Part shown: in pieces, positions 53,413 through 54,684 of the stretch | Numbering within the stretch: the stretch's first letter is position 1 | Layout: each line of letters starts with the position of its first letter | DNA from: Muribaculaceae bacterium | GTDB lineage: Bacteria; Bacteroidota; Bacteroidia; Bacteroidales; Muribaculaceae | DNA: 64,000 nucleotides | Assembly (NCBI GenBank): GCA_022510425.1 | Contig: JAFLTO010000015.1 | Span: forward strand, 1 to 64,000 | Direction: 5' to 3' | The notes under the pieces: generated by a model | Database searches by the model: none | What the model was told of the DNA's origin: nothing | What the model saw: the letters and a program-made list of their open reading frames with translations, nothing else | Program-made: the position numbers and the translations under genes

Positions 53413-54684
53413 TTATTTTATTAAATCATTGATTATATATTGTCGACTTCGATTATTTTCATCCTTGATTTCAAGATTTAAGATGTAAAAAGAACCTACT
53501 TCCAAAGTGAAATTATGTTTCCTTGAAGATGATAAGGTTATTAGATTTGGTATAATTTCATCATTAATTTTAAGTCCTACCTGATTTTTTACTCCAGGTA
53601 TTATTGCTATTTCTTTACGAGTTGGAGTTGTTAAAAATTTCCCTAATATTGGATAGAAAGATTTATTACCATTATTATCTTGTAAAATTATTTCTATATC
53701 ATATCCTATTATATCAAGGGGCAAAAAATCTTTTAAATCTCCGGTCATTACCTTAATCCGCAGGATTAGACCCAGAATCATGAATTTAAGGTCTCTCTCG
53801 TAACTTTGTGGAATTATATTTTCTTCTAAGTATTCATAAACTCCATCCCCGATTTCCAACTTAAGTTCTAGATTTTCGTAAACAACTCTATATCTACCTT
53901 CACCGAAAAAACCTTGGTCATAGGCTAATTTTCCTGTGGCAAATAATGCAGCCTCCTTATAAATTCTAACTCTATTTAAAATACCGGAAGCTTGAAGGGA
54001 ATTTTTGAAAGACTTAACATTGGGTCGTGAAATTATAATAGTGTCTGTTTCCCTTAGCGTTCGTAAATTAGAAGCAAGAAAAGATTCTCCATAATTCTTG
54101 CATCCATGGAGGTAATCCTGTTGAATATCCAATGATTGAACATAATGGTAAATATCAGCAACGGATTGATTTCTACATTTTTGCAAATCGATAGTTAAAA
54201 TCTGTCCGGTACCAGCTATACACACTGTCAGGATATCTCCTTTAAGATAAGCTATTGAAAAATCAGCATCCGGATCGCAAGTGTCCTCTTTCTTAATCTC
54301 CTCCTTAGAGTTTTGAGTTGGGATTGGCGGTGGTACAACTTTTTCTTCATTAGTTGTGGGTATGACTATTTTTTCTATTTTATTAACCTGATCTTCCGTA
54401 AGATTGAGCGATGATGCAAGTCTATTCAACAAGCGTCGGGTAGAAGGACTAATATCAGGGTCATCTGACAGACAAGCCCTATATTCTTCCAAGTATTCCT
54501 TTTCAGGCTCGCTTAAAGGATTATTTACTGCGGATTCTATTTTAGCTATTTGCTCTTGTGACAGGCCAAGGCTTTTAGCCAGTCTGTCTAACAGCCTTCT
54601 CTCGCTTGTACTTACTTGCCCATCATTAAGACAAGCCTCATATTCTTGTTGGTATTCCAACTCTTCCCTCGTAAAGGTATCCAT
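53413..54684 (-). CDS. degenerate Hsp70-like protein with N-terminal tandem helical tag
   Basis: TIIISRPNVKSFKNSLQASGILNRVRIYKEAALFATGKLAY, LEIGDGVYEY and VMTGDLKDFLPLDIIGYDIEI align in order with DnaK landmarks. Confidence 0.65.
   Translation of the reverse strand: MDTFTREELEYQQEYEACLNDGQVSTSERRLLDRLAKSLGLSQEQIAKIESAVNNPLSEPEKEYLEEYRACLSDDPDISPSTRRLLNRLASSLNLTEDQVNKIEKIVIPTTNEEKVVPPPIPTQNSKEEIKKEDTCDPDADFSIAYLKGDILTVCIAGTGQILTIDLQKCRNQSVADIYHYVQSLDIQQDYLHGCKNYGESFLASNLRTLRETDTIIISRPNVKSFKNSLQASGILNRVRIYKEAALFATGKLAYDQGFFGEGRYRVVYENLELKLEIGDGVYEYLEENIIPQSYERDLKFMILGLILRIKVMTGDLKDFLPLDIIGYDIEIILQDNNGNKSFYPILGKFLTTPTRKEIAIIPGVKNQVGLKINDEIIPNLITLSSSRKHNFTLEVGSFYILNLEIKDENNRSRQYIINDLIK

Follow-up and report, generated by a model that had tools for sequence, protein, structure and literature searches.

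The window analysed here, a stretch of 64,000 nucleotides from a Muribaculaceae genome of 2.9 Mb, carries an open reading frame of 423 aa at 53413..54684 on the minus strand, which runs uninterrupted from ATG to stop and has relatives for both of its halves. A first-pass annotation had described it as a pseudo-Hsp70 encoded by an intact ORF; the ORF is intact, but the span given for it (53413-54300) covers only the C-terminal two thirds. Residues 1-106 (54367..54684, minus strand) form two tandem TerB-like repeats, residues 107-138 (54271..54366, minus strand) a Pro-rich linker that separates the two regions having relatives, and residues 139-423 (53416..54270, minus strand) a domain, termed X, which appears to be a degenerate derivative of Hsp70. 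As judged from sequence, the Hsp70 likeness is confined to X. The codon-usage signal is weak across the last 434 bases of the gene. GC content in the region is 33-40%, compared with about 50% in a repetitive gene at 44-45 kb. The idea of a low-GC island was dropped, since the other genes of the window also average about 40% and GC alone therefore shows little.

Neither the N-terminal repeats nor the gene neighbourhood had been part of the earlier reading. Residues 1-106 are 63% identical to the C-terminus of a 687-aa neighbour and 45-47% identical to two more proteins of the genome. In Pfam and NCBIfam searches the repeats weakly resemble TerB and DjlA, and the TerB model (PF05099) scores 14.5 bits for the ORF and 19.3 bits for a neighbouring protein, below the curated cut-off of 24.4. 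The PADLOC model PDC-S48 matches the repeats at E 9.9e-8 and matches two neighbours too, the match of the ORF spanning only about 47 of the 411 model positions, within the repeats. The ORF sits in a run of genes on the same strand, in which Pfam, repeat comparison and PADLOC place TerB-like repeats in two further products: a 503-aa protein with a zinc-ribbon-like N-terminus and C-terminal repeats (54697..56208) and the 687-aa protein, again with C-terminal repeats (56441..58504). The run also includes a DUF6140 gene (56211..56432; PF19637, E 3.6e-35) and a stand-alone EF-Tu domain 2 of 108 aa (58473..58799; PF03144, E 9.5e-8). The latter opens the run and is a second piece of a housekeeping protein near the Hsp70-derived domain; an EF-Tu-domain-2-like segment noticed by eye in the TerB-repeat protein of another locus (L083) was not confirmed by Pfam.

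At lower coordinates, the window holds two toxin-antitoxin-like pairs at 50125-50761 (+) and 51155-51822 (+), of the nucleotidyltransferase (Polbeta)/HepT-like and DUF3791/DUF3990 types, and a 61-aa fragment of an AraC-type HTH protein at 52929-53114 (-), probably a remnant, adjoins the 3' end of the ORF. Across Bacteroidales, proteins with TerB-like repeats are sparse and carry them mostly at the C-terminus. Tandem repeats were seen in varied proteins with Sel1, zinc ribbon or other, uncharacterised domains (L006, L010, L011, L045, L150 and L153), and these proteins match PDC-S48.

The DnaK-like peptides quoted by the first-pass annotation were all located in X, TIIISRP at residues 215-221 (window 54042-54022), LEIGDGVYEY at residues 276-285 (53859-53830) and GDLKDFLPLD at residues 315-324 (53742-53713). 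However, the resemblance is weak when the query is used alone. A Pfam search gave no PF00012 match at E<=10 for the ORF or its relatives, and the ORF alone matched no Hsp70 in Pfam, NCBIfam or PDB searches. An hhalign comparison of X with DnaK returned a probability of 5% (P 0.007) and stretched the match, weakly, to DnaK residue 494. When X was scored with a DnaK PSSM, 5 of 3000 shuffles reached the observed score (p ~1e-3), which is not decisive because this one family had been picked by eye. Six-frame searches with X at the level of the phylum and the order yielded DnaK at noise level amid unrelated proteins, a scan of the genome collection with X found no relatives, and the AlphaFold2 single-sequence model of X was unusable (pLDDT 33). 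Searches for relatives of X in viral contigs, phages and plasmids gave nothing usable; plasmid matches to Fic proteins (E 0.1) were judged to be chance, and weak matches at four further loci (L120-L123) were inspected and found unrelated. The other PF00012 matches in the own genome, namely DnaK, MreB and a sub-threshold ketosynthase-like ORF, are unrelated to this ORF. From the single-sequence results alone, chance would be the leading explanation.

Relatives of X were searched for in 397 genomes of the family Muribaculaceae, and one solid (L166) and one marginal (L168) relative were obtained. L166 is a frame of 430 aa; over 255 aa it aligns with residues 139-393 at 22% identity (E 1.5e-6). 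A TIR domain (PF13676, E 1.2e-17) occupies its N-terminus and is followed by X. L168, a frame of 409 aa with an N-terminal hydrophobic stretch, matched at E 0.0085 and could itself be a chance match, since about three matches as good are expected by chance in 397 genomes. This membrane X-domain protein is encoded in a Muribaculaceae cluster (L218; G1003 contig 73), next to ThiF, Prok-JAB, a WXG100-like protein and an ATPase of the FtsK/SpoIIIE type that carries GYF domains; the cluster resembles a type VII secretion-like system that also has enzymes of the ubiquitin type. Two other candidates were discarded, L167 as a low-complexity match and L211 as a glycosidase-like protein. Both L166 and L168 are uninterrupted ORFs with the same deletion as X and with other N-terminal modules, which makes X look like a domain put to new use and not like a gene in decay; the proposal of neofunctionalisation instead of decay is supported to this extent by one clear and one marginal relative. 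Related TIR proteins of its genus (that of G1131; loci L202-L205) have, as read from their sequences, different C-termini on one TIR domain family, namely Sel1-like repeats, WG-like repeats or a ferredoxin-like segment in place of X, so X is one of several partners.

A profile was built from the alignment of the three X domains (query, L166 and L168). In a search of the entire PDB it matched 21 chains at E<=10, of which 19 were DnaK, Hsp70 or Stress-70 and the remaining two MatB and CbpM. The best match was 2v7y (E 4.9e-5), with two collinear stretches (profile 56-160 on 84-190 and profile 168-241 on 330-400). A scan of 109 genomes of the family gave exactly one profile match in 84 of the 108 besides that of the window, nearly always a frame of 630-700 aa hit at the same profile positions, and the single matches checked among the examined ORFs were DnaK. 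Scoring of 4547 ORFs gave up to 29 bits for DnaKs and 9.2 bits for the best unrelated ORF. Column shuffles of the three-member profile reached at most 13.6 bits compared with 28.0 observed (0/500), and those of the profile without L168 at most 10.0 compared with 19.1 (500 shuffles). The latter, two-member profile still had DnaK as its top PDB match, but only at E 0.097, and the TIR-X protein alone gave a shuffle p of 0.1 against DnaK. The strongest profile block covers the linker between the nucleotide-binding domain (NBD) and the substrate-binding domain (SBD), a linker that marks Hsp70 specifically, as opposed to actin-like folds at large. Taken together, these comparisons make it quite probable that X derives from a DnaK-type Hsp70; the derivation claimed by the first-pass annotation, weak from the query, is supported by the family-neutral search with the three-member profile and by its shuffle controls.

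Mapped onto the DnaK of the host, the profile spans residues 106-216 and 362-424; the Hsp70 regions matched in this way comprise a portion of lobe I, the initial strands of IIA, the linker and the beginning of SBDbeta. Within X, residues 215-285 (53830..54042, minus strand), matched by the first stretch, are the counterpart of the DnaK stretch from VITVPAYF to LELGDGVFEV without GGGT, whereas residues 301-358 (53611..53784, minus strand), matched by the second, correspond to the last NBD helix, the interdomain linker and the first SBDbeta strands. The linker reads LKDFLPLD in the query and VKDVLLLD in Hsp70, and its final LD is kept in all three members. In DnaK, hydrophobic residues of the linker and D393 matter for interdomain communication (PMC8215388). 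SBDbeta is matched at its start, up to DnaK 424, and beyond this by the weak hhalign extension alone; as the protein ends where the DnaK match (up to 494) ends, a lid is absent. For the first 75 residues of X (139-213) no Hsp70 counterpart was identified.

The query contains none of the DLGTT-, GGG- or GGST-type motifs, in agreement with the earlier remark that the DLGTT and GGGT loops are absent, and DLGTT, GGGT and GGSTR are absent in all three profile members; the corresponding motifs of the own DnaK, starting at residues 9 (DLGTT), 192 (DLGGGT) and 335 (GGSTRIP), have no counterpart in X. From the DGVYE/DGVFE block to the linker there are 34 residues in X and 34 to about 41 across the members, compared with 171 in DnaK, so that all three have lost about 130-137 lobe II residues. 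The earlier view of a preserved fold path is accordingly only partly right and needs amending: half of the NBD is lost, while the linker and the start of SBDbeta are kept. A two-lobed NBD with IA, IB, IIA and IIB is not seen in the alignment. Since IIA for the most part, and IIB and the lid entirely, are without counterpart, a two-lobed nucleotide cleft presumably cannot form, and the anatomy of X would exclude an ATP-driven cycle.

Hsp70 is among the most conserved proteins, and its ATPase normally runs the substrate-binding part. The architecture of the ORF, its apparent relation to Hsp70, the lost motifs and the shared deletion could be explained by a two-module protein, in which an Hsp70-derived X serves as an ATP-independent module for polypeptide binding or docking on interchangeable N-terminal parts, an overall explanation to which we give about an even chance. 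A DnaK-type Hsp70 would have lost most of lobe II (the rest of IIA, IIB and the adenosine motif) together with the phosphate loops and the lid, and would have retained a portion of lobe IA, the linker between the domains and a segment resembling SBDbeta. Such a domain could not run the ATP-driven chaperone cycle and would most likely bind or dock polypeptides without ATP; this mechanism, taken by itself, is put forward tentatively, at somewhat less than even chances. The TerB-like repeats on the ORF and its two neighbours would most likely join the proteins into one complex. In the relatives X is coupled to TIR or to a membrane anchor, which suggests that X serves in recognition or assembly, with the portion in front of it providing the output or the anchoring. 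A defence-like reading draws on the TIR fusion, on the toxin-antitoxin neighbours and on PDC-S48, which the repeats match. X might be a mobile, ATP-independent recognition module on different outputs (TIR effector, TerB-like scaffold, membrane anchor) that senses or captures exposed hydrophobic polypeptides, for example during phage infection, although we consider this extension rather unlikely. If the explanation is true, half of the ATPase domain would have gone from the X family while the linker and the SBDbeta start remained, and this part of a chaperone would have been re-used as a sensor or adaptor with TIR and defence-associated repeats. Among the papers searched, none dealt with Hsp70-like modules joined with TIR or WXG100 clusters. 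X escapes the Hsp70 models of Pfam and NCBIfam, so more such domains may hide among hypothetical proteins.

The main rival explanation accepts the same Hsp70-derived domain but gives it a purely structural role, as a scaffold or subunit interface that holds assemblies together without binding clients. Pseudo-enzymes often turn into structural scaffolds or interfaces, the WXG100/FtsK/ThiF/JAB cluster around the membrane X protein is a setting that would suit a structural subunit, TerB-like repeats are common to proteins of the window's gene run, and SBDbeta is matched weakly past its first strands. However, the linker and the start of SBDbeta are the best-kept parts of X, which would be odd for plain scaffolding, and on balance we regard a purely structural role as unlikely, if worth keeping in mind.

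That X is an unrelated fold, with coincidental DnaK-like blocks that were noticed because DnaK is familiar to every reader, would fit the noise-level rank of DnaK among unrelated proteins in the single-sequence searches; the p of ~1e-3 is not significant after a choice among thousands of families, and one of the three profile members is marginal. Against this stand the family-neutral PDB search, which is dominated by Hsp70, the shuffled profiles, which never reach the observed score with the marginal member in or out, the correct order of the two blocks and the same deletion in each relative, so that coincidence appears improbable. The large deletion, the lost motifs and the weak codon-usage signal at the end of the gene would also fit a decaying, functionless piece of dnaK that became joined accidentally to the TerB-like repeats. 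But the ORF is intact, relatives at 22% identity keep intact ORFs and the same deletion, and the divergence of X from DnaK far exceeds what a recent fragment would show; decay is hardly credible.

The ATP-independent binding or docking module can be set beside several known systems. Like DnaK-type Hsp70 (PF00012), X is collinear over the two covered stretches of DnaK (106-216 and 362-424), but it differs in having no phosphate-1, phosphate-2 or adenosine motif and no lid, in the deletion of about 130-137 lobe II residues, in scoring below every family cut-off and in its fusion to TerB-like repeats. HscA and HscC are divergent bacterial Hsp70s with deletions in NBD and SBD (PMC8215388, PMC8910936); they share with X the deletions, whereas the full two-lobed ATPase domain is kept by them and not by X. 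Compared with the TerB domain and DjlA, the repeat unit of the ORF is like the second half of TerB, but the units are tandem and short, stay below the curated cut-offs and come without a J domain. PDC-S48, a candidate anti-phage protein of PADLOC-DB, has the TerB-like repeats in common with the ORF, while X lies outside it. With bacterial TIR proteins (PF13676) the connection runs through L166, in which TIR is followed by X, whereas the protein of the window combines X with TerB-like repeats and has no TIR domain.
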